Source: a virus
IMG/VR virus record: IMGVR_UViG_3300024182_000006
Coordinates: 1 to 63,710 of that record
DNA length: 63,710 nucleotides
Direction: 5' to 3' (one strand)
Numbering within the stretch: the stretch's first letter is position 1; each line of letters opens with the position of its first letter. Positions 37,463 to 60,255 of the stretch are shown here, in pieces. Position numbers and translations under genes: made by a program. The notes below the pieces were generated by a model, which searched no databases, was not told the origin of the DNA, and saw only the letters and a list, made by a program, of their open reading frames with translations.

Positions 37463-37846
37463 TTAGGACACAGCGATCCATGAAGGGGGATTGGTCGTAC
37501 TGTCGAGGCAATAGAGCTTCGGCCCCACACGGATCAGCTCCTGGAGCGGCGCCGATTGGTGGCCCGAGACCGTGGGAAGCGCGGTGTAGGAGTTCACTCC
37601 CGCTTTCTGTGGATTGAGGGCAATGCCCGGCAGAGCCGTGATGTCCAGAGCGAGATCGTTCCCGCTTGTCAGATGGGACCGGATCATCGCAACGTCGCCA
37701 GGGGTGATCTGTGACGCTTCCTTAGCGATCTTGTGCGTCTGGTCCACGTTCTGACGAAGTGCGACAAGCTCGCGTGACATCTCCTGGAGCAGCGTGTAGA
37801 GCTGTGCGGGGTCGTGGACTGTTCCTAGATCGAATGAGCGTGGCAT
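37463..37846 (-). CDS. Hypothetical tail-region protein with N-terminal coiled coil
   Basis: A 127-residue protein. A heptad-like N-terminal helix (LYTLLQEMSRELVALRQNVD) is followed by a beta-rich C-terminal part. It starts at the stop of the 1447-residue tail gene. Possibly a small tail or fibre-base protein that trimerises through its coiled coil. Confidence 0.6.
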   Translation of the reverse strand: MPRSFDLGTVHDPAQLYTLLQEMSRELVALRQNVDQTHKIAKEASQITPGDVAMIRSHLTSGNDLALDITALPGIALNPQKAGVNSYTALPTVSGHQSAPLQELIRVGPKLYCLDSTTNPPSWIAVS

Positions 37847-40800
37847 CAGACTCGGGCTCCTGTAATGCGCGATTCATCTCCGAATGGGTGTGCGCGGACC
37901 CACTCGCCGCTCGTCCAACCGCGTACCCGAATCCACGAGTCACGACGGTAGAGCGAGCATTGGCCGGAGAGCATAGTCAACTCGTAACGTACGGCCTCCG
38001 CTTTGGCACAAGAGATGGGGAAGTATTCCGGCTTGCGTAGCCCCGCGGTAGAGGGGATATCGACCGAGAAGAGCTGGGCATTGGTGGCTGCATCGAGAAT
38101 ACGGAATCGGGCAATACCCGTTGAGCGGAGCATGATCATCCCATCGCGCCACACCTTCCACGCCTCATCAATATCGTGGGTGGTCTGTTGCGTGAGGTAG
38201 TAGTCGGCCAATTCTGGCTCAGGCTCCCAGACCCAACGGGTGGGGGGAACGGGCCACACACGCGCGGGGGAGAGTGGTGTGAGTCGCACGAGATGGGCCA
38301 GAATCGGTGGGTTGAAGTCATACTGCTTCTGCGCCCGCCCGTTGTGATTGACGCCGGCGATTGTATAGGCGGCCGCGTTCTCGTCGGTATCCACGCGGAT
38401 CGAGACGCTCGCCCCTTCCGTATCGGCGTCGATCACCACACCCTGGATGTATTTCAACCCGTCGTAGCCTAGAGCACTCCACGCTTGGCTTTCGGTAGAC
38501 AGATCGGGCGCGGGATCGGCATCCCAGGTCCACGCGAAGCGCATCCACGAGGCGGAGTCTGTGGGGAGGATACGCATCGTGTACGCGTAGAAGGGCGGGT
38601 TGAACGGGAAGAACTGCCGCGAGCGCCCGTTGGAAGTGATCCCTGTAATCGTGTAGGCCGTGGTGGTATTGCCATCCTTCTGGATCACCGCCGATCGACT
38701 CGCGCCGAAGGTATCGTGATCGATCCAGATGCCGCGCACGAACTTGCTTCCCGGCATCCCTCCATCCTCGTAATCGGTTGCCTCGAGGAACGTGTCCACA
38801 GGCCGGTCGAGCCAGGTCGGTTCCCAGGCATAGAGGATGGGACGGTCAGTCGAGGAGGAGCCGGAGTAGTCCACCGCCACGTCGCGTGCGAACTGTCCCG
38901 CCCCCGAATTGATGTCGACCACCACCACCTGCTTGGTACCCGAGCTCCCCGAGATCGTCTTGCTGGGGCCGGAAACCGCGGCGCTGTCGAAGTACAGCTG
39001 GGCGACCACCGAGCCCCCTCCGCTATCCACCTCGACCCACGTATCCCCCACCTGCTTACGGGGGCGGGGGTCGCCCATGTTCTCGGACACGGTGCGCGCC
39101 TTCCAGGAGAACGCCGAGCCGAGATCCCCCTGACCCATCACCGCTTTGTACAGCTTCCCCGTAGACTCGTTCGAGCCTACAAGCAAGGCCTGCTTCCCCT
39201 CTCCACGCTCAAAATGGTGGATCGTCCCCACGCTATAGACCCACGGCCACCAGCCGATACTCCCCGCCTTCTCTCTCCCCGCTAGCACACGAGGATTGCC
39301 GCTAGCGTCAATGTAGTTGAAGATCAACCACTTCTGCCCCCACTCGAGCCGGGTTTTGCCCTGACGGGATAGAGACAGGTCGGGGGGCTGGAAACCGTTG
39401 ACAGCTTGCCCGGCCAACCCCTCGTGAGGGAAAAGCGGGTAGAGATCCCCATCGGTTAGAGAGATGGCCACACCCCCAGCGCTCGCGAGAATGCCGCTCT
39501 TGGCGAGCCAATAGAGACGGTCACCGACGACGAACGCCCATTTCAGAGCGAGGCCCTCCGCCCCAGGGATACGATCGAATCGCACGAGCAGATCGCCCGC
39601 CGGATCAACCCCCAGAAACTCCATACGGTAGAGATTTTCGAGAGTGAACACGTAAACCGACCCGTTCCAGTACCCCAACCCCTGGATGGGGTCTGAGGGG
39701 TTGCCGATCGGAAAGTGGAGTGTCTCGATCGTCGAGTCAAACTCATCGGTACGGGAGATATAGACGACATCGGGGTTGCGGTAATCCCCCGCAGCCACGA
39801 GACGATTGGCCGAGATTGCGTGGGTAAAGAATGGGAGAGGCTGCGCGAGGAGAACGGGAGAGTTGATCTCCCAGGAGATGTGGGTTCCATCTCCCGCGTT
39901 CTCGTACAGGTCGACAAGACTCGTAGAGATGACACGGCGAAGCGTCGCCTGCACCCCGTTCGCCGTGATCTCAGTGCCTGGGGCGAGGGAGAGAGAGAAG
40001 GGGGCGGAAGAGTCGTATAGGAGCGTCCCCGCAAGAGTGGTCGTGGTCGTGCCCGGTGGACTGGAAATCGGCTTGATCTGGACTGGCCAGAGTTGACGGT
40101 GATCGGCCGTGCCCATCTCCAACCCAGACAGCACTGTCTGATTGCTGACCTTGTCGAGGAGGATGACATCCCCTGTACGGCTGACAGGATTGTCGATCGT
40201 CATGAGAGGGCGCCAGCCAGGGATCGGGCCGCCAAACCGCTCAAAGTCGAGCTTATCCGCCTCGGGGGAGGGGTGGGCAGGGGCGGTGACGTAAACGAAC
40301 TGGCGGCTGGGACGTGGGGTGTGCCTCGAGGGAGGGGATGGGTCCGACACCACTCCCGTGGAGCTGTCGCGGGCACGGTAGCGGTAGGAATAGCCGGCAT
40401 CCGCAACGGAAATATCTGGATCGAATCCGCCGTGGATGCACCACCCCGCCACATCGAGGAGCACATTCGCCGAGCACATCAACGTGATCCGGATCGCTTT
40501 GATGTTGGCTAGGCCCCGGGTCGTATCCTCCCCCACCCGCTGCATCTCGGAGAGACGGAAAGTGATCGAAGCGAACTGATCGACTCCTGTCCCCCCCTGT
40601 GAGCGGGAGGACTGAGTGCGTTCGGAATTGGTGAGTACGGTGGGGTCGACGATGTTCGCATTGGCCAGGTTGGGGTCGTCTGGAGTATCGGGGAGGATCG
40701 TCCCCCCTTTCGTCTTGAGGGGGGGATTGGGGACGTACGAGTCGTAATTCCCATACCCGTCGTAAGGGGTCGCGATCGTCGGATAGTCGACAAATCGATT

Positions 40801-42189
40801 GGCGAGCTGTTGACGACGATTCTCCAGAGCGGCCTGCGTATCCACAAGAACGGGGAGCAGATCGTTGGGATCGATCGTACGGAAGAAGTAGTTGCGTGTG
40901 AAGTTATTGGTAGCCGAGTCCACATCCAGGAAGAGCTTGATCTCACTGACGGCTGAGGGAACGTCTACGCGCATGCGGATCGTCATCCAATCGTTGCTTG
41001 TAGATGCGATCGGATTACCCCCGAGAATGGTGTTGTCGGTGATGCCCGTCAGATCGAGATTGATCGTCTTGGACATCGTCGAGGGGGTGTTGGCCGGAGT
41101 CGTGGTGACGGAGAATCGCAATCCGTCGGAGAAGATCGCCCCCGTAATTGCTGGGGGGGCGTTCATGATGCAAACGAACGAGGGCACTGTCTGGATCGCA
41201 TCCCCTGAGACGCGTGTCGCCACCGTCTTGACGATGAGCACCAAGTCCCCATTCACCCCTGGAACCACCTGGCGGATGCGCACGTACTCCGAGGTGGAAG
41301 CTCCCGTGATCTTGAGTAGAGCGTTCTGTTCGAACTCGCGAACCGAGGAGCTCACGGTGATCGCGCACAGACCTGAGGAGCCAGACTCGTAGAGGATCAG
41401 GCTGATAGTGAAACTCGTCGAGCCCCGGTGCGTCTCGAGTACCAGTACGTTCTCATTGGCGGGGGGAAAGTCCGTGTCGAGAATCTTGAGGATCGAGTTC
41501 ACTCCGATATTCGAGGGATCAGCCGGCTGGATGCAGCAGAAAAATCCACCTCCCCCAAGAATCTCGTTGGGGCTCGCCGCAACGGTTGTCGTATTGACAG
41601 GGGCGCCCACTGACGCGGAGAGCAGGAGAGGGCCAGTTGCCGTGAGTGCCGCAGTCCACCCGGTGGTAGCCCACATGAGATCGACGACGCGGTAATAGGC
41701 CGAGCTGACCAGGCAATCGGGCGCGTTGCCTGGTGGGGGCAGCCCGATCTGCTTGATCGCGCCGGTCACATCCACCTTGCGCATGCGGAGCGAATCTCCG
41801 ACGTAGATCCACGGCTGGGGGCTGTCGGGAGGGTGGAGTTGGGTCAGGCTGAGGGGGTTACCGCTGTAGGGTCCGTCGAGATCGGTGATGGTACCCACAG
41901 CAGTGGATTTTTCGATACAGAGACGGTCGCCAACGCCACTGACCCGTGCCCAGAGAAGGGTGCCCGAGGAGCTGTCATTGAGCTCGTTGATCGAGTGCCA
42001 GGGGGATTTGCCCGAGGGGCCGGTAGCGATTGCCGATCCCAGACCTGCGCGGGGGGTAACGGTCCCGTCGATCACCGAGATCATATTCTCGAGGATCGGC
42101 ATCTTGCGCGGCGGGGTGCGATCGACGGGGCGGGCCAGATCGATCCCGTCGCACTCGAGAAGCTTCTGTCCGCGACCGTACTCGCTCAT
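37846..42189 (-). CDS. Giant tail protein, 1447 residues
   Basis: Mainly beta-sheet by eye. The N-terminal region (GIDLARPVDRTPPRKMPILENM) and the central LHFPIGNPSDPIQGLGYWNG-type stretch resemble the propeller-like tail-hub proteins of podoviruses (tubular protein B group). Residues about 1128-1228 and 1229-1326 are a tandem duplication of about 100 residues: each has YTI-x-G-x-NGR, a FNPP motif, LTP/LPT and a Trp-rich WxWxxDP/EP end. It probably forms the tail knob and binds fibres or spikes. Confidence 0.65.
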   Translation of the reverse strand: MSEYGRGQKLLECDGIDLARPVDRTPPRKMPILENMISVIDGTVTPRAGLGSAIATGPSGKSPWHSINELNDSSSGTLLWARVSGVGDRLCIEKSTAVGTITDLDGPYSGNPLSLTQLHPPDSPQPWIYVGDSLRMRKVDVTGAIKQIGLPPPGNAPDCLVSSAYYRVVDLMWATTGWTAALTATGPLLLSASVGAPVNTTTVAASPNEILGGGGFFCCIQPADPSNIGVNSILKILDTDFPPANENVLVLETHRGSTSFTISLILYESGSSGLCAITVSSSVREFEQNALLKITGASTSEYVRIRQVVPGVNGDLVLIVKTVATRVSGDAIQTVPSFVCIMNAPPAITGAIFSDGLRFSVTTTPANTPSTMSKTINLDLTGITDNTILGGNPIASTSNDWMTIRMRVDVPSAVSEIKLFLDVDSATNNFTRNYFFRTIDPNDLLPVLVDTQAALENRRQQLANRFVDYPTIATPYDGYGNYDSYVPNPPLKTKGGTILPDTPDDPNLANANIVDPTVLTNSERTQSSRSQGGTGVDQFASITFRLSEMQRVGEDTTRGLANIKAIRITLMCSANVLLDVAGWCIHGGFDPDISVADAGYSYRYRARDSSTGVVSDPSPPSRHTPRPSRQFVYVTAPAHPSPEADKLDFERFGGPIPGWRPLMTIDNPVSRTGDVILLDKVSNQTVLSGLEMGTADHRQLWPVQIKPISSPPGTTTTTLAGTLLYDSSAPFSLSLAPGTEITANGVQATLRRVISTSLVDLYENAGDGTHISWEINSPVLLAQPLPFFTHAISANRLVAAGDYRNPDVVYISRTDEFDSTIETLHFPIGNPSDPIQGLGYWNGSVYVFTLENLYRMEFLGVDPAGDLLVRFDRIPGAEGLALKWAFVVGDRLYWLAKSGILASAGGVAISLTDGDLYPLFPHEGLAGQAVNGFQPPDLSLSRQGKTRLEWGQKWLIFNYIDASGNPRVLAGREKAGSIGWWPWVYSVGTIHHFERGEGKQALLVGSNESTGKLYKAVMGQGDLGSAFSWKARTVSENMGDPRPRKQVGDTWVEVDSGGGSVVAQLYFDSAAVSGPSKTISGSSGTKQVVVVDINSGAGQFARDVAVDYSGSSSTDRPILYAWEPTWLDRPVDTFLEATDYEDGGMPGSKFVRGIWIDHDTFGASRSAVIQKDGNTTTAYTITGITSNGRSRQFFPFNPPFYAYTMRILPTDSASWMRFAWTWDADPAPDLSTESQAWSALGYDGLKYIQGVVIDADTEGASVSIRVDTDENAAAYTIAGVNHNGRAQKQYDFNPPILAHLVRLTPLSPARVWPVPPTRWVWEPEPELADYYLTQQTTHDIDEAWKVWRDGMIMLRSTGIARFRILDAATNAQLFSVDIPSTAGLRKPEYFPISCAKAEAVRYELTMLSGQCSLYRRDSWIRVRGWTSGEWVRAHPFGDESRITGARV

Positions 42190-43547
42190 CGCTGCTTCTC
42201 CGGAGGCGAGAGCAGCGTACCCACCCCCCGTCCAGGTTGGCGCTCTGGGCGGTAGTTCTCATCCTGGCGGGAGAGCTGCTGGCTCGGCTCGGCCTTGTTC
42301 CACACCGACATCTTCGTATTGTATCGAGAGCACCCTGCAATGAAACTCTGAAACAGACGAGCCGCGTCGTCCATCATCGCTGCGCCGAGCTTGAGCATGG
42401 CAGTGGATTCGGCGCCATCGAGTAGAGCCGCGAGATCCTCCCGCCCGAGTTGAATCGGATCAGCGAGAGTTGGGGGGATCGGGGCTTTGGCCACGACGCT
42501 GAAGGTGATCTGGTAAGCCCGATCGGGGACGGGTTGGATACCCACCATGTTGCCGCCAATCAGCCCCGCGTTCTTCGGAGCACCACGGCGCGCGCTCTGC
42601 CAATGGGGAGCGGCGTACAGGTAATCGAGACCAGCCAGGGGGGAGGGGATGATCGGTACGCCCTCAGCCTCGATGAACAGAACCTGGGCCATCTGATTGG
42701 TAAGGGCCATTCCCATCTGGTAGCGCTGACGGTAAACCTGCGCGCGCGCGGGATCTGCTGCCTCCCCATCCTTCTCGAGGAGTAGAGCCATCGCGAGCGA
42801 GCGCACGATCCAGGTGGTGTCATCAGGCACCCCGAGCACGATGCCGGCGGTGGGATCGAGATCGGTTCCCGTGAGCACAGTGAGCAGCTCGACTGTACCC
42901 GTGTCGTCGTTGGTGGGGATGAGCTGCATCGCGAGTGGCGGGGACGAGAGGATCGAGTACGTGCGCGGGGTGCCTGGTTGGAGCGGGTAGAGCTGGTTGT
43001 ACGAGGCTGCCGAGAGCTGGTCGCTCCAATGAAGATTCGAGTACTGACCATTTTGAGCGCGCCACATGGCACGGCGGATCGCTGTGGTCGTGTCGCCCAG
43101 GTCCACCTGCCCTGTGCCAGGAGGGGCGAGATAGGATTGTTGCGAGAGCGTCGTCATCGTCGAGTCAAGGAACTCGTTGCGCGCACGCTGCAATTCGGCG
43201 ACGAGCTCGGCGAGGGAGAACTGGGAGGAGCCATTCCACGTGGTGGTGGACGCAGGCTCGCAGAGTTGGAAGCACATCAAAGGCAACAGATCCACGTCGC
43301 GTACGGTGTAGTCGAGGATGCCTGCCGGCTGGAGTAGAGAATTCAGATCGTAGAGGGCGATGCCGGCTGTGGTGGTGAGGGTGCCGGTGTTGCGCCAGAA
43401 GCCGGTAGCCAAACCCCACATGCGGAGTGTTTCGGTGATGATGGCGATGAGTTCGGCCTGAGTCCACTGCACCATGGACGGATCATCGAGGCGCGCAGCC
43501 AAAGTCGAAACAGCCCCGCCGAGAGTGGTGTGCGTGTATGTGGTCAC
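42186..43547 (-). CDS. Tail or connector protein (453 residues)
   Basis: GTG start at 43547. The N-terminal 60 residues (ARLDDPSMVQWTQAELIAII ... ETLRMW) match the layout of the head-completion/adaptor family next to portal rings: helices followed by a beta sandwich. It shares that layout with the 412-residue protein at 45778-47016, so the two may be related. Ends inside the giant tail gene start. Confidence 0.6.
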   Translation of the reverse strand: MTTYTHTTLGGAVSTLAARLDDPSMVQWTQAELIAIITETLRMWGLATGFWRNTGTLTTTAGIALYDLNSLLQPAGILDYTVRDVDLLPLMCFQLCEPASTTTWNGSSQFSLAELVAELQRARNEFLDSTMTTLSQQSYLAPPGTGQVDLGDTTTAIRRAMWRAQNGQYSNLHWSDQLSAASYNQLYPLQPGTPRTYSILSSPPLAMQLIPTNDDTGTVELLTVLTGTDLDPTAGIVLGVPDDTTWIVRSLAMALLLEKDGEAADPARAQVYRQRYQMGMALTNQMAQVLFIEAEGVPIIPSPLAGLDYLYAAPHWQSARRGAPKNAGLIGGNMVGIQPVPDRAYQITFSVVAKAPIPPTLADPIQLGREDLAALLDGAESTAMLKLGAAMMDDAARLFQSFIAGCSRYNTKMSVWNKAEPSQQLSRQDENYRPERQPGRGVGTLLSPPEKQR

Positions 43548-45310
43548 TTGCGCTCTACCGAGATGTAACCGATCGAGTACGTGCCGCCTGCCGTGAGATT
43601 CGTTCCATTATTATCGAATTGGACTGTGAAGTCATTCGCTGTGCGCGCGGTGATCTGGACAGAAGCCCCCGCCGCCCAGGCAGTTCCCCCGAAGATGAGG
43701 GAAGGGACGATGACCGGGAGAGCCACCCCCACCGATGGATATTCGTAGGTGACCTTAACCGTTCCCGAGGAGGCAGGCGTGGTGACGGTGGGAAAGAGGA
43801 GCACGATGCCCGTGTGATCGGTAGAGGCGGCGTCGGTGGTCACAGTGCCCGAGGGGCCAGTGAGCGTGCTCGCAGTGGGGCCAGACCCGTCGTTGTACGA
43901 GGCGACCTTGCCCATCGAGACGTTGGGCGTGTTGCCTGTGCCGTAGGTGGAGAAGCGTTGGGTGCCCGTAGCCCCGTCATAGAAAGTCCCGAGGATACGC
44001 GTGGAGAAGAACCGATTGAAGTTTCCCTGGCCCCCTAACGGGCTGATAGACACGTTGTTGAGTAGGCCGCCAAAGATGGCGTTTTCTCCTCCAGCGGCAA
44101 GAGAGGTGCTGTTGAGGACGAAGGTACCGTTGCTCGTGACGTTGATGAATGTGTTGTACGGCTCGTCGACGATGAAATCATACCCACCCGAGTTGGCCTC
44201 GCAGAAGAAGTTGATGACCGTATTCTTGATATTCGTGTTCGAGTGGACGGCGGGCAGACTCATCCCGATGATGTTGTCCTCCGACGTGCCACCGAGAAAC
44301 GTATTCCCCTCGCAGTCATTGCAGAGGATGCCGATGCCCGCTCCTGTGATCACCCCTTCGACAGTGAGATTCGTGAACACGTTGTCGATCGTGTTCTCCA
44401 CTGGGTCGCGTCTGCCCAGCTTGAGCCCATATGTGGGGCGGAAGGTGAATGTGAGACATCGCGGGGAGATGCAGACGTTGTCGAAATGCGAGAGGATCGC
44501 GTAGGAGGTCTCGATCCCAGTGACGACATCTGCGAGCGAGACATCAGCAAAGCGCCCTCCAGCAAGCGCACGGAGGTATAAGCCGACAGTCGCGGAGGTA
44601 TTGCCCACGACCGACATCTTTTCCATATAGACGTCGCTCACGATCGCGATTGTCACCCCTGCGTCGAAGTCGATCGCATGCCCCGAGCCCGTGAAATGCA
44701 GGACGGAGATCCCCGCCCCGTCGCCTAGGAGATGGATGCCGTTGAGGCCGAGATGGAGTGTGGAGGCGTAACTGTACTGGCCGGAAGGGAAGTAATACGC
44801 CGTGCGCGCGGTCCAGGTGATCGCCGAGTCCCACCCAGTCCAGGGATCGAGCGTGGTACCCGTGCCCCCCGTGGCGTATTGAGCCACATTCGTGACGAGG
44901 GAACCAGAAGCGTTCCCGATGATCTGATTGGGGAGAGTGAAAGGGGAGGAGATCCCCGTACCGGAGAAACGAATGTCGTAGGCTCCGTTGGCGGCGTAAA
45001 ACGCCCAGAAGCCGTAGGCGTCAGCGGTGAACGGATTGGTCTTGAGGCCCCCCGTTGCCGTGGAGTAGATCGTGGCTGGGGTAATTGTCCCCGCGATGTA
45101 TACCGTGACCAGAGCGTACGGGTAGGATGCCTGGACGTGAGTCGTGCATGGCTGGATTGGTAGAGGCAGGCATGGGGGAGTCGTCACCGCGGTCTGGCCG
45201 CCACGTTCGGCGTATCCAGAAAGGGACCCGAGAGCATAGAGGCTTGGGGCGGCGAGGACGAGAGCCGAGAACAGAACGGCCATTATGAGCGTACGGTGCG
45301 GTGCGGACAT
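43544..45310 (-). CDS. Tailspike-like beta-helix protein with Sec signal peptide
   Basis: A 588-residue protein. Residues 9-27 (IMAVLFSALVLAAPSLYA) are a classical signal sequence after a basic start. A short head domain with two Cys follows, then a pectate-lyase-type right-handed beta-helix from residue about 160 (LGLNGIHLLGDGAGISVLHF; runs of N-x-F-x-N and V/I ladder turns), and a C-terminal beta-sandwich (residues about 520-588, VTYEYPSVGV ... YISVERK). Such spikes bind or cleave cell-surface glycans. A cleavable signal on a spike is unexpected. Confidence 0.75.
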   Translation of the reverse strand: MSAPHRTLIMAVLFSALVLAAPSLYALGSLSGYAERGGQTAVTTPPCLPLPIQPCTTHVQASYPYALVTVYIAGTITPATIYSTATGGLKTNPFTADAYGFWAFYAANGAYDIRFSGTGISSPFTLPNQIIGNASGSLVTNVAQYATGGTGTTLDPWTGWDSAITWTARTAYYFPSGQYSYASTLHLGLNGIHLLGDGAGISVLHFTGSGHAIDFDAGVTIAIVSDVYMEKMSVVGNTSATVGLYLRALAGGRFADVSLADVVTGIETSYAILSHFDNVCISPRCLTFTFRPTYGLKLGRRDPVENTIDNVFTNLTVEGVITGAGIGILCNDCEGNTFLGGTSEDNIIGMSLPAVHSNTNIKNTVINFFCEANSGGYDFIVDEPYNTFINVTSNGTFVLNSTSLAAGGENAIFGGLLNNVSISPLGGQGNFNRFFSTRILGTFYDGATGTQRFSTYGTGNTPNVSMGKVASYNDGSGPTASTLTGPSGTVTTDAASTDHTGIVLLFPTVTTPASSGTVKVTYEYPSVGVALPVIVPSLIFGGTAWAAGASVQITARTANDFTVQFDNNGTNLTAGGTYSIGYISVERK

Positions 45311-45728: not shown

Positions 45729-45753
45729 CGTTGGCTCCTTGTCATACTGATCT

Positions 45754-45786
45754 GGTCAGGCGTTGGTCAGGCGTTGGTCAGGAGTG
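45754..45786. repeat. Three-copy 11-bp tandem repeat
   Basis: GGTCAGGCGTT at 45754-45764 and 45765-45775, then GGTCAGGAGTG at 45776-45786, at the very end of the gene ending at 45778. It may have arisen by slippage, with each unit carrying a stop on the minus strand (TGA). Confidence 0.7.
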
Positions 45787-47016
45787 CCGTTGTTCCCACG
45801 AGGCGTCCCATGGGGGGCCGTCGAGCCCGGCAATCGGCGTCTCTTTGAAGTATGTCACGTCTTTGGGGTAGATGTCATCGTCACGCAGGGCGAGGATATC
45901 GATCTCTTTCATCCACGCACTGCGACGGAGCACTGCCATCTTCGGGTCGTAGTAAGGGTTCGGATTGGCCGGGTCGGTGCCTGGCCAGTCGGCAGCCTGG
46001 ACCATCGCCCCTTGGAGTAGGACGTCGGTGCGCGCGGCAATCGATGAAGGGAGCGTTGCGCCAGGGGCGGTCAAGTCGGGGATCTGGGTGATGTAGTAGA
46101 ACGGGTATTGGCTTTGGGTGAGCTGGTTGGGCCAGAGCTCGAATCGGGGGACACCGCTCGAAGCGATGGCCGAGGCGCGAGTGACGAACACGTCGCCCAC
46201 GGTGTACGTGATCCCTGCGTCATCAGGCCACCAGACATAGACCCCGTCGATGAGACCGATGGCATTGGGGCTGGTTGGGACGCCGGTGACGTAGGTGCCA
46301 TCCCCTTGTTTCCATTTGAAGATGGCCGTGCCGGAGGCCCCGCCCGTGGTCACCTCGACCACGTACAGCGTGTCGGCGTAGCCAGTGTAGGTGCCGGCGA
46401 ATACGGGAGCGTGTCCGGTGCCCCGTGCGTGGGTGGGAGTGGCGTCGACCGAGCCCAGGGGGATTGTCGAGTAGCCAGCTTCCGCGAGAACGTAGGGGGT
46501 ACCTGTGGTGACACGCCGCGCGTCTCGCCGGTCGATCTCACGCCGCTCGACGCCAGTACACAGACGCCAGTTGCGTGTGGTATCGATCACCGAGATAAAC
46601 GAGTGGAAATCGGTCGGGGCGGTGAGGAATTGCTGGAGGATGATGTAGCCGAGTCCGGAGATGTCGGGGTCGCCCCAGGGAAGGTTGATCCGGAGGTGTG
46701 TTCCGTCTATCACGGCCACGATGTCGTAGCCGAACGCGAATCCGACTTTTAACTGGCGCCCCACCATATCAGGAGTCCAAGACGTCCCTGTCCCTGTGAC
46801 AAGAGTGGGATCGGAATTGGAAATCGCGATAGTGCCGGTGCTGTAGGCGCTGGGGACGTTGAACACGCCATAGCGTAGACGCCAGGACCAGTCACGCTGA
46901 TCTGCGAACTGGTTCCAGGCGTTGAGCGCCCAGAGAGTGCACAGAGGGATGCCGGCACCAGGACATAGGAGCATGGCCTGGTGCGCGACTTGATCGATTG
47001 TAGAGATCTGCGCCAT
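45778..47016 (-). CDS. Head-tail connector / adaptor-type protein (412 residues)
   Basis: N-terminal helical 50 residues (IDQVAHQAMLLCPGAGIPLC ... WALNAWNQF) then beta-rich repeats (GTGTSWTPDMVGRQLKVG; a motif also common in tail-completion proteins), and an acidic-aromatic C-terminal region. Just after the capsid and decoration genes, as for adaptor rings below the portal. No firm family. Confidence 0.55.
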   Translation of the reverse strand: MAQISTIDQVAHQAMLLCPGAGIPLCTLWALNAWNQFADQRDWSWRLRYGVFNVPSAYSTGTIAISNSDPTLVTGTGTSWTPDMVGRQLKVGFAFGYDIVAVIDGTHLRINLPWGDPDISGLGYIILQQFLTAPTDFHSFISVIDTTRNWRLCTGVERREIDRRDARRVTTGTPYVLAEAGYSTIPLGSVDATPTHARGTGHAPVFAGTYTGYADTLYVVEVTTGGASGTAIFKWKQGDGTYVTGVPTSPNAIGLIDGVYVWWPDDAGITYTVGDVFVTRASAIASSGVPRFELWPNQLTQSQYPFYYITQIPDLTAPGATLPSSIAARTDVLLQGAMVQAADWPGTDPANPNPYYDPKMAVLRRSAWMKEIDILALRDDDIYPKDVTYFKETPIAGLDGPPWDASWEQRHS

Positions 47017-47028
47017 CGGGGAGGGGGA

Positions 47029-47277
47029 TCAGGGGTAACCGACTACTTTGACGAGAGCATTGGTGACCGCTCCGGTGGTCGTGAACACCACATGGGGCGG
47101 GGAGCTCGTGTCGGGAGCGGCTTTGGTGATCGCGCCATCGTTGAAGGTGACGCCGACGATTGCACGCAGGCCGGGAATCCAGTAATCCCCGGTGTTTGCG
47201 ATCGTGATCGTGGAGTACACCTCCAGCAGGGTGCCGTTGACATTGTCGATTCGATTTGTGGCTGTAACGACTGCCAT
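47029..47277 (-). CDS. Small virion-type beta protein
   Basis: An 82-residue protein, all-beta by pattern (VYSTITIANTGDYWIPGLRA). GGAG before ATG. Typical of small capsid-decoration or tail-attachment proteins; family not recognised. Confidence 0.55.
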   Translation of the reverse strand: MAVVTATNRIDNVNGTLLEVYSTITIANTGDYWIPGLRAIVGVTFNDGAITKAAPDTSSPPHVVFTTTGAVTNALVKVVGYP

Positions 47278-47336
47278 GTGCGTGTTCTCCTATACGCTGG
47301 GACGACGGAGCAACGGAACAACGGGGCTCGGGGGAA

Positions 47337-47873: not shown

Positions 47874-47902
47874 GGTAATTGGCTCCTTTCAGCGAATCCG
47901 AT

Positions 47903-48997
47903 TTACTGCGTGAACCCGAACACCTGCGCGTGATTGCGCGGAGACCGGAAGAATAGAGCGATCGAGGCGAGGATCTGGCCCGCGATCTTGTTGTTGCCCT
48001 GCGCCGCTTTGTACCCGGTAAAGCCAAAGCCGAACTTCTTGCTCTTGGAGATCATGAAACGAACGTATTGGCGGCGAGCGTTGATCCAGAAGAGCGTCTC
48101 GCTCGTGATCGTGGGGTAGGCCGCGAGCACGCCCTTGGACGACTTCTGGAGGAAAGGATTGGCTACGCGGGTCACGCCGTTGGTGTTGGTGCCAGAAATT
48201 ACAGTGCCGGGTGCGTAGCGCGAACGCATGATGTTGCAGTTGTTGTATTTGAGGGCGTTGAATCCGAGTTTGGGGTCCTGGGTGTCGTTGAAGCGCTGCT
48301 GGTTCTGGAAGCGGCTCTTGATCGCAGTGAACCCCTTGTACGTGGTGATACCGATGTTCGGCTCTTCCTCTCCCTCGCCGATGGTGGCTTGGCTGTAGGA
48401 GTTCTCCAGATCGAACTGCATGAGGGTGGTCGAGGCCGTCTGATACGGGACGGAGTTCAGAGCATCGCCGATCGTGCCGTTGCGCGTGGTGTCGCCCAGT
48501 TTCGTGTAGATCGAGCCGTCCCACGAGGCGTTGGTGCCGTCGTTGAGCTGCTCGGCCATACCGGTGATCAGGCGCGTGTAACCGGCGCGAGAACCGTTGA
48601 GATAGAGCGACATGGCCACCTGGGCGCCGATGGTCTTGAGTGCTCGGCTCATGCGCGTGTTGATGAAACGGTACACCGCACGCGGACCAATGTTGAATAC
48701 TTCCAGGTCTTCGAGCAAGGCGGAGACGTTGCAGTAATAGAACTGCATTGGCAGCGCAAAGGCTTGCTCGGCCTGGATCTCGGTGAGATCGAACTCATCG
48801 CCTGGATCGTACGCACCACCGATCTCCGGGGCGTATTCGAAATCGGATTCGACGAGGCGCCGGCCACCAGTGAACTGCTCTTCAGCAACGTCGCGCAGAT
48901 AACCGAGAAGTGGATCGCGGTGGAAGATGTTGTCGAGAATGCGGGGTGTGTCGAGAATGAAACGCTCTGTTGCCAAATCAATCTGGTTGTAATCCAT
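47903..48997 (-). CDS. Major capsid protein (HK97-fold candidate)
   Basis: A 364-residue protein placed after a scaffold-like gene, with a strong GGAGGAG site. N-terminal arm (DYNQIDLATERFILDTPRIL), then the long helix and beta patterns expected of HK97-type coats (LEDLEVFNIGPRAVYRFINT, SRALKTIGAQVAMSLYLNGS), conserved gene order and the expected length. The fold is inferred from context; I cannot verify it by alignment. Confidence 0.8.
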   Translation of the reverse strand: MDYNQIDLATERFILDTPRILDNIFHRDPLLGYLRDVAEEQFTGGRRLVESDFEYAPEIGGAYDPGDEFDLTEIQAEQAFALPMQFYYCNVSALLEDLEVFNIGPRAVYRFINTRMSRALKTIGAQVAMSLYLNGSRAGYTRLITGMAEQLNDGTNASWDGSIYTKLGDTTRNGTIGDALNSVPYQTASTTLMQFDLENSYSQATIGEGEEEPNIGITTYKGFTAIKSRFQNQQRFNDTQDPKLGFNALKYNNCNIMRSRYAPGTVISGTNTNGVTRVANPFLQKSSKGVLAAYPTITSETLFWINARRQYVRFMISKSKKFGFGFTGYKAAQGNNKIAGQILASIALFFRSPRNHAQVFGFTQ

Positions 48998-49059: not shown

Positions 49060-49911
49060 TCAGTGGGTTTTGTCCGACCGGGTGAACCCGTTGGTCTGTT
49101 GCCACGAACGCACGAAAGCGTCCTCCCCTTCGAGAGGCTTACCGTCCGAGCTCGTGATTGTTTGCGTCTTGGCACGTCCGAACATCACAGCGCGCAGAGC
49201 GCCTTCTCCGGCGTGATCCCCAGAGCCGGCCGAGGGCTCGTCGCGTTGGCTCAGAGCTTCGAGCCGACCTTGCTCGCGCGCCTCATCGATCTTTTTCTGA
49301 GTCTCGGCTGCGCGCTTTTCATCTTCGAGTGGCTTGCAGAAACGGTCGTAAGCGAGATGAACGGGGAGCTTGTGCTCGCCCGCGTACTTGATCAGCTCTG
49401 CTTGATTGAGCGACTTGCCGTAGCTCTCCCGGTAGTGGTTGCTCAGGTCGAACATCATCGTCATCGCGGTGAGGGAGTCCTGATCGACTTTACTCACCTC
49501 GCTCAAGATGCGCTCCGCTACTTTGGACAGGTCTTCTTTGGTGACGAACTGATTCGTATCGAATGGCTGGGTCACAGGGCGGGACTCCTCTTCGTTGGTG
49601 CGCGGGAAGTGAGAGGTCTGTGCCTGGCGGAGTCGCTCGTTGTACTCCTGTTCCTTCTCGTCTCGCCACTTCACGTTGTTGTCGTAGATGCCGTTGGCGC
49701 GATTCGTAGCCTCGCGAGCACGGTCGAGGGCAGACTGCGCCTTCTGACGCGAGGCGACCGAGTTGTGCAGACGGCCGACAACCTTCGGATTGCGCAGTGC
49801 TTCCTGCGCTGCCCGCGCCACCTCCTCCGACAAACCAGCATCGGTGAACAGATCGTTGATGTACTCGTCCGCGTCGAAGAGCTCAGCACTAGGAGCTTCA
49901 ATTACCGCCAT
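49060..49911 (-). CDS. Scaffolding protein
   Basis: A 283-residue helical, charged protein from ATG 49911 (49923 is an alternative). It contains long Glu/Lys/Arg/Gln helices (ARAAQEALRNP; EDEKRAAETQKKIDEAREQG) typical of capsid scaffolds, upstream of the capsid gene. C-terminal Ser/Thr-rich stretch ends RSDKTH. Confidence 0.75.
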   Translation of the reverse strand: MAVIEAPSAELFDADEYINDLFTDAGLSEEVARAAQEALRNPKVVGRLHNSVASRQKAQSALDRAREATNRANGIYDNNVKWRDEKEQEYNERLRQAQTSHFPRTNEEESRPVTQPFDTNQFVTKEDLSKVAERILSEVSKVDQDSLTAMTMMFDLSNHYRESYGKSLNQAELIKYAGEHKLPVHLAYDRFCKPLEDEKRAAETQKKIDEAREQGRLEALSQRDEPSAGSGDHAGEGALRAVMFGRAKTQTITSSDGKPLEGEDAFVRSWQQTNGFTRSDKTH

Positions 49912-50623: not shown

Positions 50624-52912
50624 CTAGGGGGCCGTGCCCCACTCGTAGCGACTGACCTCGGCCACGACGTCGTCGCTGTTGGTAGCCTTGCCGGTGATCT
50701 TGAACTGAAGAGAGGAGGTCAAGGTGAGGCCAGTCACGGCGGAGTAGGTCGTGGTGGCAGGGAGCACCGTGGACGAGGTGATGAGAGTCGTCCAGCACTT
50801 GATCGTGCTGTTGCCGGCAGTCGCGTCGGTGGTCTGACAGTTCGCCTCAACCGCCCAAGAGGAGGCAGTGGTGATCGCCAGAGAGCCTGTGTCGAAGATG
50901 TGGTTGCTGCCGAGATAGATCTGGATCTGTTTGTCGGTCGAGCCAGTGGCTGCGAAAGTGCCCCCGACCTTCATCGTCACGATGTCGCCGATGGCGTTCA
51001 TCATGCCCGCGTCGAGTGTGACAACGCGTAGATCGGTCTCTGTGGCCGCTGTGTTGCCGGTGGTCTGACCTTGATCGTTAATACCGCCCCCTACGCGTGC
51101 GCGCGTGCTGGCAGCAGCATCCGGCTGGATTTGGAGCACGCCATTGCCAGAGGCAGTGACCCCAATGCCCGTCTTGCCAGAGACTCCTCCGCCAGCTGCG
51201 TCGCCGTTGAGTGTGATGGTGTTGGCGCTGGAGACGGTGAGAGGGGTATTGGCTCCATTGGTGAGCGTGAACGTGGTCGAGCCGGGCATGCCCAATCCCC
51301 AGTCCTGAGAGCTGGTCTCGCTGCTGACGAAATGGATCTGGGAGTTGCGGCCGGAGGAGGTTCCATTACCCGTGAGCAGCCGGAGCTGGACCAGGCGAGT
51401 CGCGCTGGTGTTGCTGATCTGGGCGGTCATGCCAGGAGCGCTGTTGGCGCTACCCGTAGCCTCGAAGATGTAGCCGCTCGACGAGGCCCCTGTACCAGTA
51501 CCAGCGGCCCCGATCTCGAGCTCAGCGAATCCATCGGAGGCGTTGGTGAAACGGACCTGGTTGGCAGCCGTGCGTTTGAAGACGGAGTCGGCTGTCCCTT
51601 CGGCGTCGGTGGTCGAGGACCAGGAGAGAGTCCCGTCCGAGGGGAAGGTGCAGCCCCCAGCACACAGGACTTTGCTGACGCCGCCAATTGCGAAGCCGAA
51701 GGCAGCGGAGGTGAAATAGAAGCCCGTGGTGGAGGCGGCTGAGCGGACGAGGGTGGGGGCGGCTTTGGAGCCATCGGCGACGAGGGCGTTTCGGGAGAGG
51801 TAGGCGTCGCGCCAGCGCTTGGATGAGGAGCCGAGATCGATCGAGGCGTCGGCGCCGGGGAGCAGAGATGTGTTCACAGCGACCGAGGCGAGATTCGAGA
51901 GGGCTGTGTTGGCTCCAGCAGCGGGGGCGGCGGCCAGAGCTACCCATACAGCGTTTTGGCAAGTGTATTGGGAAGTGTCGGTGGTGCCGTCGGTGCGGAG
52001 GTAGATAGATCCAGTGATACAAGCGCCAACAGGGGCCCCGATACCGTAGGTGATGGCGGCTCCAGTGGAGGAGTCGTGGAAGGCCAGCTTCTCGGAAGTC
52101 ACAACACCTATGTTGTCTACACGGAAGGGCGTCGTGCCGAGGCCGTCGTTCTGGATCTGGATGGCAACAGCTCCGTTGGCGCGGCCATTGAGGTCGTCCA
52201 CGAGCAGAATGGGGATGGCAGGGTCGGTTGCGCGGCTCACGATCGAGGCCCCGACACCCTCGAGCGAGTCTGCTTGCAGACCGAAGCCGTTGGCCGAGCC
52301 GGATTTGTCGAGAAACACCCCCGCTGTGCCACCGTTGATCGCAGCGGAGGCAACGACACCCAGGACCGAGTAGCCCCCATCCCCTCCAGCGTAGATCGAG
52401 TAGATCCCCGCGTCGCTGCCGGGGTTGTAGAGGGAGTTAGGGGTGGTGGTCGGGTCGATCGTCGAGCTATGGGAGAATTTCGCCACCCAGAGGGCGAATC
52501 CATTGTTCTCTCGCCCGAAAACGGCCATCCCTGACTTGTTCCCAGTCGTGCTCGAGTCGTCCTGGACAAACAGAACGCTCGTATTGCCGGCTGAGGAGGG
52601 AGTGGTCGCGGTGATCGTTTTCTTGGCGGTGATGGCCTGGTCGGTGTTGGTGGTGACGCACGTCGAGCAAGGACCGCTCGACCCCCCCGTGGACACGGCG
52701 GTCCAGGTGTTGGTGGCCGTGCAGAGATAGAGAACACCGGGGGTGCCGGTGGAGAAGACGTCCATGGCAGAGAGGCTGTAGGTGCAGGTGGCAGGGAGAC
52801 CCGAGCCGGCGCGAATGCGGTTTGCCGGGTTGTTGAATAGCTGCGCCCCGGCTGTGGGGGCGAGAGCCAGAAGAGCCGATACCAGCAGAAGAGAACGCGA
52901 GCACCTAATCAA
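50624..52912 (-). CDS. Exported fibre-like protein A (762 residues)
   Basis: TTG start coupled to the preceding gene. Residues 2-23 form a signal peptide (SLLLVSALLALAPTAGA) with an A-G-A cleavage motif, then QLFNNP...RIRAG, LPATC and LYLCTATNTWT. A second pair of the same type is inside (GACITG, YTCQNAVWV near residue 320). Beta-rich repeats with Gly/Ala/Thr and a C-terminal sandwich (ETDLRVVTLDAGMM, SSLQFKITGKATN) follow, as in tail fibres. The Cys pairs suggest disulphides, consistent with export. Confidence 0.7.
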   Translation of the reverse strand: MIRCSRSLLLVSALLALAPTAGAQLFNNPANRIRAGSGLPATCTYSLSAMDVFSTGTPGVLYLCTATNTWTAVSTGGSSGPCSTCVTTNTDQAITAKKTITATTPSSAGNTSVLFVQDDSSTTGNKSGMAVFGRENNGFALWVAKFSHSSTIDPTTTPNSLYNPGSDAGIYSIYAGGDGGYSVLGVVASAAINGGTAGVFLDKSGSANGFGLQADSLEGVGASIVSRATDPAIPILLVDDLNGRANGAVAIQIQNDGLGTTPFRVDNIGVVTSEKLAFHDSSTGAAITYGIGAPVGACITGSIYLRTDGTTDTSQYTCQNAVWVALAAAPAAGANTALSNLASVAVNTSLLPGADASIDLGSSSKRWRDAYLSRNALVADGSKAAPTLVRSAASTTGFYFTSAAFGFAIGGVSKVLCAGGCTFPSDGTLSWSSTTDAEGTADSVFKRTAANQVRFTNASDGFAELEIGAAGTGTGASSSGYIFEATGSANSAPGMTAQISNTSATRLVQLRLLTGNGTSSGRNSQIHFVSSETSSQDWGLGMPGSTTFTLTNGANTPLTVSSANTITLNGDAAGGGVSGKTGIGVTASGNGVLQIQPDAAASTRARVGGGINDQGQTTGNTAATETDLRVVTLDAGMMNAIGDIVTMKVGGTFAATGSTDKQIQIYLGSNHIFDTGSLAITTASSWAVEANCQTTDATAGNSTIKCWTTLITSSTVLPATTTYSAVTGLTLTSSLQFKITGKATNSDDVVAEVSRYEWGTAP

Positions 52913-53306
52913 CAGTAACCCCCGTGATCTTGCCGTTGGCTACGAGCCAAGTGGCAATACGCATCCGAAGCTTATTCGCCACGGTCTTGCCCGTTTCCCC
53001 CGCGACAGCTGTGTTCATTTGGGTGACCAGAGACAGGAGCTCGGTAGGCGAGGTGATGAGAACGTCGGTGGTCAGAGCCGCCATGTCATTGCCGCCATTG
53101 GCCACCGCTCCCGAGGCGCGGACATAGTCGATGTGGATGTGGGCCGAGCCGTTGCCGGTGACGGGGATCGCAAAGCCCCAGTAGACGATCTCGAACCGGG
53201 TGATTTGATCGGTTGCAGGAGGAGCATTGAGTGATCCGCCTCCGAGGAGGGCGTAGGGGAAGGCGAGACAGAGGATGATGGCGAGAAGACAGGTGATCTT
53301 GCGCAT
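52905..53306 (-). CDS. Exported small protein
   Basis: A 133-residue protein with AGGAG nine bases before ATG. N-terminal hydrophobic signal (ITCLLAIILCLAFPYALLG), then a beta-rich body (FEIVYWGFAIPVTGNGSAH) and a helical end. It lies between the two fibre-like genes with which it overlaps or nearly touches, so a common role is likely. Confidence 0.65.
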   Translation of the reverse strand: MRKITCLLAIILCLAFPYALLGGGSLNAPPATDQITRFEIVYWGFAIPVTGNGSAHIHIDYVRASGAVANGGNDMAALTTDVLITSPTELLSLVTQMNTAVAGETGKTVANKLRMRIATWLVANGKITGVTVD

Positions 53307-53318
53307 AACGAAGCTCTC

Positions 53319-54473
53319 CTAGAAGCCGACGCAGATGTAGTTGATCTTCTCTCCCGCGGTAAGAGTTACGGAGGAGATGATGGCGGTGGTGGTCGTTGTG
53401 GCCACGTTGAGAGAAGTGGTAGTGGTCTGAGCATTAGCCGTGCAGGCGGGGGCGTTGGCAAATGCCACGTTGAACGTGACTGTGCAGGAAGTGGGGGAGC
53501 CTGTTCCCGCGGTGATCGTTCCAGCGGCGTCGGTGCCAGCGATTGATGGGGAGGAGCCGCAGCTGCCCCCGATTGTAGGGCCGGTGAGTGCTTGCATGAC
53601 GAAGTGGCGCGCGCCGAAGTCGCGGTAATCGTTGCCGGTGTTGCCGACGACGAGCAAGCCCGTAGGCGTGGGAGGGGTCTGAGGGTTGACCTGGTGAAGG
53701 CTCACGCTCGTCCACCAGATCTCGCCGCCCGAGGAGAGCATGTTGACCCCACCTTGGCCGGAGCCCGCTGAGGACTGGATCAAGTTACTTTTCAACGTGC
53801 TCACAGCCTCGAGATTGTTGAAGATCTTGTACGAGGATGTGGTCGTTTTGCAGATGCCGCCATTCCCAGCATTGGGGAAGTTGCCCGTGATGGAGGTGGC
53901 CGAGTCCCAACCGACGCACATATCGGACGAGAGCATGATGTTGCCCAGATTGTCCACCGTCATCTTGAGCGTGCCATCGGAGCGGCGAGCGCGGAAGATG
54001 TCTCCCGTCTGCGAGGCTTTGGCTTCCAGGACCAAGGGGGACTGGGCGATTGCGGAGGCGGCGAAAAGAGAGTCGGCGGTGGCGTCGGCGGTGCCTGCGG
54101 TGCCCAGACCCAGGCCAGAGGGGCGGCCGAGTAGGGTGAGAGTAGTGCCAGTGGCGATGCCCGAGGCGTCGACGCGGAAGAGTTTCGTCGCATCGGAGGC
54201 GTTCTTCACGATGGCGGTGGCGTCAGAGAAAGGATTCGAGCCAGCGGTGCCGGTAGCGATGACCGTCCAAGTGTTGGTAGCGGTGCAGATATAGAGGGCT
54301 ACAGTAGCCGTGGTGGCCTGGTAGAACACATCGATCGAGTGCGTGGTGCTGACGCAGGTAGCGGGGAGTGTGGGTCCGGCTCGGAGGCGGCCGGTGGGAT
54401 TGTTGAATAGCTGCGCGGTCGCCTCGGATGAGAGACAGAGACAGAGAGTCAAAGCGATGAGAAAGCGGGACAT
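53319..54473 (-). CDS. Exported fibre-like protein B (384 residues)
   Basis: ATG 54473 overlaps the previous stop (TAATG); an upstream start at 54494 is less likely. Signal peptide FLIALTLCLCLSSEATA with an A-T-A site, then QLFNNP, RLRAG, LPATC, LYICTATNTWT: clearly paralogous to protein A. The last 90 residues hold three or four Cys in a Thr-rich domain (PTSCTVTFNVAF ... YICVGF). Likely secreted and disulphide-bonded fibre or adhesin. Confidence 0.7.
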   Translation of the reverse strand: MSRFLIALTLCLCLSSEATAQLFNNPTGRLRAGPTLPATCVSTTHSIDVFYQATTATVALYICTATNTWTVIATGTAGSNPFSDATAIVKNASDATKLFRVDASGIATGTTLTLLGRPSGLGLGTAGTADATADSLFAASAIAQSPLVLEAKASQTGDIFRARRSDGTLKMTVDNLGNIMLSSDMCVGWDSATSITGNFPNAGNGGICKTTTSSYKIFNNLEAVSTLKSNLIQSSAGSGQGGVNMLSSGGEIWWTSVSLHQVNPQTPPTPTGLLVVGNTGNDYRDFGARHFVMQALTGPTIGGSCGSSPSIAGTDAAGTITAGTGSPTSCTVTFNVAFANAPACTANAQTTTTSLNVATTTTTAIISSVTLTAGEKINYICVGF

Positions 54474-54925
54474 TACTGGATCTCCGCAATCCACATGACA
54501 ACCTCCCCGTTCACATCAGCATTGATGTCGAAGTCGCCGAGGTCCAGATCAGGAACGTGACCCAGACCGAGCGGGGGGAACCAGGTGTCGGGGATGAGGG
54601 GGACGCTGTTTGTGGAAAGTGTTCCCGGTCCGCCGAAATAGACGAGACCCGTGTTCCCGTGGGCTCCGCCGAACTGGACGCGGGAGACCGGATAACGGAC
54701 ACGAGGGATCTGGGTTGTGGCCGCGTGGTTGATCGCCGAGATCCGGGTACCGGTGTGCGGGGTATCGGTGACGATCGTGAGCCCCCCAACCCCTGCCACG
54801 GGGAGTTGGCCCGGGGCGCTGGTGAGTGAGGGGACGAGAATCACGCAGATGGTGTTGGCCCCGTCTCCGAGAAGGGGACCGGGTACGCCCAGGGCGACTA
54901 CAGCGGTGCGTCCGATGATGACCAT
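54473..54925 (-). CDS. Hypothetical virion-region protein
   Basis: A 150-residue, hydrophobic-to-beta protein without a signal peptide. AGGA before ATG; the stop overlaps the protein B start. Gly/Pro/Val-rich; probably a minor head or tail protein. No family. Confidence 0.55.
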   Translation of the reverse strand: MVIIGRTAVVALGVPGPLLGDGANTICVILVPSLTSAPGQLPVAGVGGLTIVTDTPHTGTRISAINHAATTQIPRVRYPVSRVQFGGAHGNTGLVYFGGPGTLSTNSVPLIPDTWFPPLGLGHVPDLDLGDFDINADVNGEVVMWIAEIQ

Positions 54926-58131: not shown

Positions 58132-60255
58132 TCAATGAACGTTGTGATTGTAGCTGTCGGGGTCGAGCTTGGCGTTGATCGACTCGATCATCTCCTCGCG
58201 AGTCAGATCCGAGGCCTGGTAGTCGGGAATGACCCCATTGGGCGGAGCGTCGGTGATCGTGTCGGGCACCTCGCCGTAGGACTCCCAATCGTGCGCGGCG
58301 TAGAGAGCGCATTGCGTCGCGCGGAGGGCGTCGTCGTGGAAGCCGTAGTCGGCTTTGGCCGTCATCATGTTCGGGTCTTCCTCGCAGTTGCGCATCTCCA
58401 CGTCGACTAGATACGCGGAACGAGCGATGAAGCGGACGCGGGAGAGCTCCTTGCCCTGGTATTTGATGATCTTGCAGTAGGAGATGTGGGGCTTGGTGCG
58501 GTGCCACAGATCGCGAACGGCGCGGGGAGTGGCTTCCCAGCCAAACGAGCGCACGTGGGTGTAGGTGGCCATGTTGGCCTTGCGATAGAGACGGTAGTAG
58601 CCGAACTCGTTCCACAACTTCTCCTGGAGCGGCTCTCCGGGGGAGGGGTACGTTTCCACGATCGCCTCGCACATCTCCTCCTCGCGCCCGTGGTAGAGAC
58701 GGCCGAGATAGTTGGCGATGGGGGCAGCCGCGTCGTAGGTGATCGGGGCGAGAAACTCGCACACCTGGACGTCTGGCTCGCCATGCTCCCCAACGCGAAT
58801 GATCTCGATCGCGCAGTTGTCCGTTTTCGTGTCCCCCTCCTGGGGGGATCGGCGTGACCAGTTGGGGAGGCCGCGGGAGGCGTCGACGCCCATGATGTAA
58901 CGCGCGTGGGCATTGGGGCGCTCCCACATCCGAATCAGACCACGGAGGTCGTTAGGGTTGACGGACAGATCGGCGCGGCGCATGCCACGATCGAGCCATT
59001 CGAACACGTGCGCGGGGGGCTGGGTGTCGTTGAGCAGGCGATCGAGGACGGTTGGGGAGAAGGGAGATTGGGTGCGGGATTGGAATCCCTCTTCCGGGGT
59101 GGCTGGGTAGTTCTGGAGGTGCTGGGCGAGCATCCCACGCTGCTCGGCAGTCGCGCGCGCGTCCTCATAAAAGTACAACTGGGCGCGATCGAGAGTGACG
59201 CGCTCGCCTTGCCACTCACCGTTCTCGTCCCACCGGCCTACCCACTGCTCGGAGGTGGAGTAGACACGGTAGGCGTACTTCATCGTGGCCTCGGAGGGGG
59301 TCCAGTCGTCCGGGGGCTCGAGGCGGTATTTGCCCGGCTCGGAGTACCAGGGGACGAAGATGCCGTGCCAGCGACCGGCGTTACCGGAAAGAGAGGAGCG
59401 GACGAGCTGGTGCCAGTAGTTGCCTTGGCCCTGGGCGAGGGACTCGAGGATGACGATCGTGACAAGGGAGTAGGGGACTGATTTGAAGAAGTGATTCTCG
59501 AGCTGGTCGGTGATGTTGCGCGGCCAGGAGGCGAGCTCGGTGAGATGGCCCCCGTGGGTCGTGCCGCCCATGGCGATGCCTGATTCCTGCTTAGCGTCTT
59601 GGAGCAGGACCGTTGTGTCGAGGGACTCGCACTGCATACCGGCGATCTTCGTTTTGCTGGTGATGTCGGGCTTCATCCACCAGGGGAGGTAGCGGAACAT
59701 CAGCTGCATCTTGTCGAACACCTCGCCCGTCTTGGTGTTGTCGGCTGAGGCCACGACGAGGCGGATGTGCTGAGAAAAGCAGAAGCGGTGGAGGAGGATC
59801 GCTTGGGAGACGATCGTCGCGCCCATCTGGCGCGCCTTGTGGACCACGACGCAGATCCCCTTGACGCGGATCATCGAGTCGGAGAGGCCACGGGCGACTT
59901 GGCGATCGTAATCGGCCCACATCTCCTCCTCGACATGGGCAATGTGCTCGAGAATGATCCGCTGGCTGCCCCAGGGGGAGAGCAGACCCAGGCCACCGGT
60001 GGCCGAGTCGAGCTGGACGAACACGTTGCGCTCGGCCCAATAGCGGAAGTCGAGTGTACAGAGGAGGGTCTGATCTTCGATGAATTGGGATTCGGCCTCG
60101 GTGAGGGGACGCGTCTGGTTGCCATCACCATCGACTGCCTCAGCGAGAGAGGCTACCGCATCGCGGTAGTCGTCGACGGAGTAGCGGCGGAGGGTGCGGC
60201 CGAGGATGCCCTCGACCGCGGCGATGTGCTCGCGGGTGATCCGCTCGGAGTACAT
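58132..60255 (-). CDS. Large terminase subunit
   Basis: A 707-residue protein. A P-loop-like stretch HKARQMGATIVSQAI near residues 130-145 (variant Walker A), VTIVILESL near 260, and IMGVDASRG near 458 as the first acidic residue of the RNase-H-like nuclease domain, with later YHGREEEMCEAIVE. It packages DNA into the procapsid using ATP. It is long for a terminase, but domain order is normal. It ends next to the 58085 promoter. Confidence 0.85.
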   Translation of the reverse strand: MYSERITREHIAAVEGILGRTLRRYSVDDYRDAVASLAEAVDGDGNQTRPLTEAESQFIEDQTLLCTLDFRYWAERNVFVQLDSATGGLGLLSPWGSQRIILEHIAHVEEEMWADYDRQVARGLSDSMIRVKGICVVVHKARQMGATIVSQAILLHRFCFSQHIRLVVASADNTKTGEVFDKMQLMFRYLPWWMKPDITSKTKIAGMQCESLDTTVLLQDAKQESGIAMGGTTHGGHLTELASWPRNITDQLENHFFKSVPYSLVTIVILESLAQGQGNYWHQLVRSSLSGNAGRWHGIFVPWYSEPGKYRLEPPDDWTPSEATMKYAYRVYSTSEQWVGRWDENGEWQGERVTLDRAQLYFYEDARATAEQRGMLAQHLQNYPATPEEGFQSRTQSPFSPTVLDRLLNDTQPPAHVFEWLDRGMRRADLSVNPNDLRGLIRMWERPNAHARYIMGVDASRGLPNWSRRSPQEGDTKTDNCAIEIIRVGEHGEPDVQVCEFLAPITYDAAAPIANYLGRLYHGREEEMCEAIVETYPSPGEPLQEKLWNEFGYYRLYRKANMATYTHVRSFGWEATPRAVRDLWHRTKPHISYCKIIKYQGKELSRVRFIARSAYLVDVEMRNCEEDPNMMTAKADYGFHDDALRATQCALYAAHDWESYGEVPDTITDAPPNGVIPDYQASDLTREEMIESINAKLDPDSYNHNVH

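Follow-up and report, generated by a model that had tools for sequence, protein, structure and literature searches.

The tailspikes and fibers of an Acidobacteriota podovirus lineage appear to be rerouted via the host Sec pathway and may join the virion only when the cell lyses. On balance, we regard this as the probable reading of the window, by which we mean the whole 63,710-nucleotide stretch of viral DNA analyzed here (IMG/VR record IMGVR_UViG_3300024182_000006). In the route that we propose, spikes and fibers would be made late, along with the capsid and tail genes, and be exported, losing their signal peptides to expose mature N-termini such as QLFNNP. They would then fold and form intrachain disulfides in the periplasm while capsids and tails assemble without them in the cytoplasm. 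Opening of the cell by holin and endolysin would bring virions into contact with ready-made spikes, and docking would constitute the last step of assembly. Tailspikes of the P22 type are the last component to be attached, and spikeless particles can receive them in vitro, which makes docking at lysis plausible.

Three of the signal peptides in the window are found in a close-packed gene cassette lying inside the late structural operon, with the portal gene on one side and the scaffold gene on the other:

50624..52912, minus strand: 762-aa predicted exported fiber-like protein with signal peptide, QLFNNP mature N-terminus and two-Cys domain (Cys43/Cys64)
52905..53306, minus strand: 133-aa predicted exported small protein with signal peptide and no mature cysteine
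53319..54473, minus strand: 384-aa predicted exported fiber-like protein with signal peptide, two-Cys domain (Cys40/Cys63) and 8 mature cysteines
54473..54925, minus strand: 150-aa protein without signal peptide, in translational overlap with the 384-aa gene

The initial annotation had credited the 762- and 384-aa proteins with signal peptides and a paralogous two-Cys domain, and had placed a small exported protein between them. All of this is borne out. A crude rule finds both signal peptides, with a signal peptidase I-type site; the small protein is the 133-aa product (N-terminus MRKITCLLAIILCLAFPYALLGGG...); and the motifs said to be common to the pair (QLFNNP, R-x-RAG, LPATC and LY-x-CTATNTWT) are present as described. 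Paralogy is restricted to the N-terminal 100 residues (E 1.7e-17, with 46% identity across residues 2-101). The genes follow one another in the order 150 aa, 384, 133, 762, joined by a TAATG overlap, an AGGAG ahead of the 133-aa ATG and a TTGATTAG overlap. The 384-aa gene starts with ATG, its N-terminus reading MSRFLIALTLCLCLSSEATA up to the predicted cleavage site before QLFNNP. The 762-aa gene starts with TTG (N-terminus MIRCSRSLLLVSALLALAPTAGA, again followed by QLFNNP), and its signal peptide needs this start since the next in-frame ATG lies at about codon 50, within the shared domain. The TTG is preceded by GGGGG and overlaps the stop of the 133-aa gene. The use of TTG might be taken to suggest an artefact, whether host genes, wrong start codons or misassembled contigs; yet the same arrangement recurs across numerous independent contigs as well as in the cultured phages Tunturi_1 and Tunturi_2, which refutes this explanation for the lineage overall and leaves it a negligible probability here. 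The mature cysteines fall into close pairs in both proteins: 43/64, 82/85, 298/318, 417/421 and 692/706 in the 762-aa protein (10 in all), and 40/63, 186/208, 305/330 and 344/381 in the 384-aa protein. Neither protein has a Pfam or PHROG profile match at E 1 or better, and the Pfam search at E 1 detected no host-type adhesin anchor or secretion domain (autotransporter barrel, sorting motif) in either. No close relatives of the two were found among GenBank phages. The 133-aa protein matches PHROG_6102 weakly (E 0.002). AlphaFold2 models the 384-aa protein confidently at residues 31-80 only, as a small beta domain, and a Foldseek structure search returned no significant matches.

A further signal-peptide protein, of 588 aa, lies in the tail cassette of the same operon, flanked by adaptor and stopper genes:

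37846..42189, minus strand: tail hub/nozzle-like protein without signal peptide, most of its length common to relatives
42186..43547, minus strand: stopper-like tail protein without signal peptide, named by position
43544..45310, minus strand: 588-aa predicted exported tailspike with signal peptide, N-terminal spike module (residues about 30-125) and PHROG_18522 region
45778..47016, minus strand: tail adaptor-like protein without signal peptide, named by position
47903..48997, minus strand: major capsid protein of the lineage, with homologs in relatives
49060..49911, minus strand: scaffold-like protein, named by position, with a homolog in contig G020
54947..56911, minus strand: portal protein (PHROG_156, weak P22_portal match), with homologs in relatives
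58132..60255, minus strand: terminase large subunit, with homologs in relatives

The 588-aa protein matches the tail-protein family PHROG_18522 with an E value of 2e-17. Its similarity to GenBank phages is limited to the N-terminal module and a stretch of residues 228-376, and a PDB sequence search found nothing. It has 7 cysteines, with a pair of its own (C47/C55) instead of the pair typical of its family, which weighs against the reading proposed here. The 1447-aa hub was considered as a variable receptor binder and rejected, as it aligns with relatives over most of its length. No other obvious spike or fiber candidate was seen in the window; with hub, stopper and adaptor all devoid of signal peptides and the hub largely conserved, the signal-peptide proteins are the sole obvious ones.

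The N-terminal module of the 588-aa spike offers a view of how export and cysteines go together. It occurs in 13 contigs, the lineage capsid gene being present in 12 of 12 records tested, and a capsid-seeded scan added further members. Among 25 members with a signal peptide (that of L148 being weak), 19 have both family cysteines (GxCxxGG and PxCTVTVY), two have one and four, including the window's spike with its C47/C55, have neither. All members without a signal peptide carry neither cysteine, both in the lineage (L149, L152, L192, L185/L189) and in cultured phages (Erwinia phage KEY, GJ44, Hera), so that the family pair is never seen without a signal peptide. Counting the signal-peptide members conservatively as 18 of 25, the association has a Fisher p of 0.014 within the lineage and of 0.001 once the cultured spikes are included. 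The upstream regions of L149, L152 and L192 showed no frame-shifted signal peptide. Spikes with and without signal peptides occupy the same slot of the tail cassette, among adaptor, stopper and hub, and one contig (G048) combines a 601-aa spike lacking the signal peptide and containing 2 cysteines with an absence of signal-peptide fibers. The module is conserved while the C-termini are largely unrelated, as in virion-anchored receptor binders. In KEY (Erwinia, EPS-depolymerase), Hera (Serratia) and GJ44 (Oceanospirillum), the homologous module likewise precedes a spike or fiber body; unlike in the lineage's signal-peptide spikes, it begins at about residue 17-21, with no signal peptide ahead of it and no module cysteines. 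Virion docking is the simplest interpretation of the N-module spikes, given their orthology and synteny with spikes lacking signal peptides and the attachment of one N-module to changing C-termini. That they would trimerise, be cleaved and dock is what we infer from these sequences; the case for docking is weaker where the 384/762 pair and signal-peptide proteins with enzyme-like domains are concerned. Lysis time is short, and the need for exported spikes to meet virions within it counts against the docking route.

If the cysteines pair in intrachain disulfides, their number is expected to be even. This was the case for 28 of 31 signal-peptide fiber-like proteins (p 5e-6), as opposed to 23 of 51 fiber-like proteins without signal peptides, in 13 contigs. 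Further sets gave 24/28 for signal-peptide proteins, 31/38 versus 31/67, and 20/24 versus 12/21, the last "non-SP" group including some proteins that probably do have signal peptides (831 aa in G047, 647 aa in G049 and Tunturi gp13). Cysteine density was about 1.7-1.9 per 100 aa with a signal peptide and 0.8-1.1 without, roughly a twofold difference in most sets. The rule used to call signal peptides, crude as it is, fires on 0.6% of shuffled N-termini and gave zero positives among the structural proteins of P22 and T7. Chance hydrophobicity, chance signal peptides or wrong starts were rejected as an explanation for the lineage, with the TTG of the 762-aa gene duly noted. One could also envision that the hydrophobic N-terminus stays uncleaved, as a segment for assembly or membrane tethering, and that the cysteines are kept reduced or bind metal; disulfides could in principle form after lysis. 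However, the segments have signal-peptide architecture with AxA-type sites, a predominance of even cysteine numbers is confined to proteins bearing them, and orthologs without them lack both cysteines, all of which renders this explanation highly improbable. Parity and the coupling of cysteines to signal peptides strongly suggest that the signal-peptide proteins are exported and disulfide-bonded, and to that extent uphold, by inference, the earlier proposal of disulfides formed in an oxidizing place.

A similar coupling is found in the two-Cys domain of the 384/762 pair. Searches located this domain in numerous viral contigs and a small number of MAG contigs; it is absent from 50,697 GenBank phage records, among which no recognized tailspike shares the N-terminal module of the pair, its sharing being limited to uncultured fibers without signal peptides. 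Among sequences whose N-termini are readable and complete, about 45 of 46 copies with the first cysteine (that of LPATC), counted by hand, belong to a signal-peptide protein, while 9 of 11 copies without it are in proteins lacking a signal peptide and the remaining two come from Bacteroidota MAG contigs (Fisher 6e-8, a value that overstates independence since the sequences are related). In a few members (L047, L050 and L052), a second cysteine pair is carried together.

The podovirus lineage of the window has a cultured relative, Tunturi_1, whose host is Tunturiibacter psychrotolerans X5P2 (Acidobacteriota). Homologs of the window's terminase, portal, capsid, stopper and hub occur in the IMG/VR contigs G001 and G020 and in Tunturi_1 and Tunturi_2 (PP887698, PP885685), whereas the spike C-termini of the two cultured phages are unrelated to the window's. 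Directly 3' of the tail gene, Tunturi_1 encodes four signal-peptide proteins, all with even cysteine numbers: gp12 (1190 aa, 20 Cys, predicted mature N-terminus QTAAYPNG), gp13 (675 aa, 10 Cys), gp14 (about 913 aa, 20 Cys), annotated as a tail spike, and gp17 (1184 aa, 32 Cys). The gp17 of Tunturi_2 is longer, with two additional cysteines, so that the number is still even. Tunturi_3, a podovirus that infects the same host strain as Tunturi_1, has low-cysteine fibers without signal peptides. Besides its signal-peptide proteins, Tunturi_1 has no other obvious spike candidate. We found no virion proteomics for these phages, and the main text of the Tunturi paper (PMC11924767) contains none and does not mention signal peptides.

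The same genomes raise the possibility that the proteins are exported and disulfide-bonded but never become part of a virion. Outside it, they might work as free polysaccharide depolymerases, keep progeny from binding to debris again or prevent superinfection by acting as decoys or receptor blockers, or serve as surface adhesins in carrier or lysogenic cells. Tunturi gp17, with a beta-helix and CHB_HEX_C_1, and a 667-aa protein of G001, also with CHB_HEX_C_1, resemble ordinary secreted enzymes; several signal-peptide proteins of very different sizes occur per genome; some clusters are found at a distance from the tail genes (G050 37861-48841, G043 35429); and some similar two-Cys signal-peptide proteins in Acidobacteriota chromosomes adjoin glycosyltransferase-like genes. 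Set against this, spikes of the 588-aa type sit among core tail genes, in a slot that orthologs without signal peptides also occupy, annotated tailspikes have the same module at their N-terminus, and both the window and Tunturi_1 would be left with no other obvious spike candidate. We therefore consider a purely non-virion role rather unlikely. A compromise would have the N-module spike on the virion and the extra signal-peptide fibers, the 384/762 pair included, act as secreted accessories. The N-module spike alone recurs syntenically while the other proteins vary in number and place, and G050 combines an N-module spike devoid of signal peptide with four signal-peptide fiber-like proteins elsewhere. 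Nevertheless, the 384- and 762-aa genes lie within the late structural operon, from portal to scaffold, and multi-spike virions are common among podoviruses; such a division of labor seems improbable to us.

The proposed docking of exported spikes at lysis inspires analogies with filamentous phages, whose coat proteins, such as pIII, have a cleaved signal peptide, form periplasmic disulfides and are assembled after export. The spikes would share these properties. However, filamentous phages are extruded without lysis, whereas the window's virion genes are the terminase, portal and capsid genes of a tailed dsDNA phage with cytoplasmic capsids. Lom, Bor and Llp are also phage-encoded proteins with export signals, but they are small outer-membrane proteins or lipoproteins, in contrast to the large spikes encoded within the structural operon. 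Among open-licence papers, we found no report of signal-peptide-bearing spikes in tailed phages; tailspikes being a known kind of protein, it is the assembly route that is possibly new. If the route exists, completion of tailed-phage virions is not bound to the cytoplasm, lysis doubles as a step of assembly, spikes rely on host export and oxidation to mature, and disulfide-armored spikes become possible in soils. Fiber genes with signal peptides in metagenomes, easily mistaken for host contamination or auxiliary genes, could then be virion parts. Tunturi_1 and its host are a cultured pair, making the question directly testable.

The suggestion in the initial annotation that an export-assembly system might be at work gains from its recurrence across the lineage, in Tunturi_1 and, within a Terriglobia MAG, in L035, the contig of a contractile-tailed phage. 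In the latter, a signal-peptide protein is encoded shortly after the baseplate genes and has tail-fiber family matches that repeats may inflate. It is tempting to speculate that tailed dsDNA phages infecting Acidobacteriota, and probably other phages too, make heads and tails in the cytoplasm and disulfide-bonded spikes and fibers in the periplasm, joining them only at lysis, and that a single spike family has acquired or lost export repeatedly; we would give this generalization about an even chance. In a phylum-wide search, the lineage capsid was found in 5 of 396 Acidobacteriota genomes. Two-Cys signal-peptide proteins located away from phage genes are also rare in the chromosomes (3 of 396 sampled genomes), where they mostly adjoin a large Cys-rich protein. 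Phages may have borrowed exported modules from their hosts, or the reverse.

Counted back from the CT..W cysteine, the two-Cys domains of contigs L047, L050, L052 and L053 have cysteines at distances of 30, 20 and 15 residues; the joint presence of both members of a second cysteine pair suggests that these domains form another disulphide. The CTATNTW domain is also found, in proteins with signal peptides, on MAG contigs L031, L035, L036, L033 and L032, from Bacteroidota, Patescibacteria and Acidobacteriota. Four loci on Acidobacteriota chromosomes that encode two-Cys-domain proteins with signal peptides may constitute a host surface system related to the phage proteins:

L031:7869-13825
L267:168-5641
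L268:1398-9640
L269:9423-12266

A Cys-rich protein of ~1200-1300 aa adjoins these proteins in three of the four loci, and glycosyltransferase-like genes lie close to some of them.

Three small proteins carry an export signal or a start resembling one. The phage proteins on L084 and L156 look, by sequence, like outer-membrane beta-barrels; the window protein is possibly a lipoprotein or outer spanin.

L084:9042-9521, exported phage protein, 159 aa
L156:8146-8736, exported phage protein, 196 aa
Window 63330-63659, 109 aa, signal peptide-like start and LLASPSCC

The large terminase, a single ORF in the window and its cultured relative Tunturi_1, is instead split between two ORFs in three relatives:

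G001 (L083:17447-19623)
G043 (39557-41616)
G050 (8012-8851 and 34950-36185), halves ~26 kb apart on opposite strands
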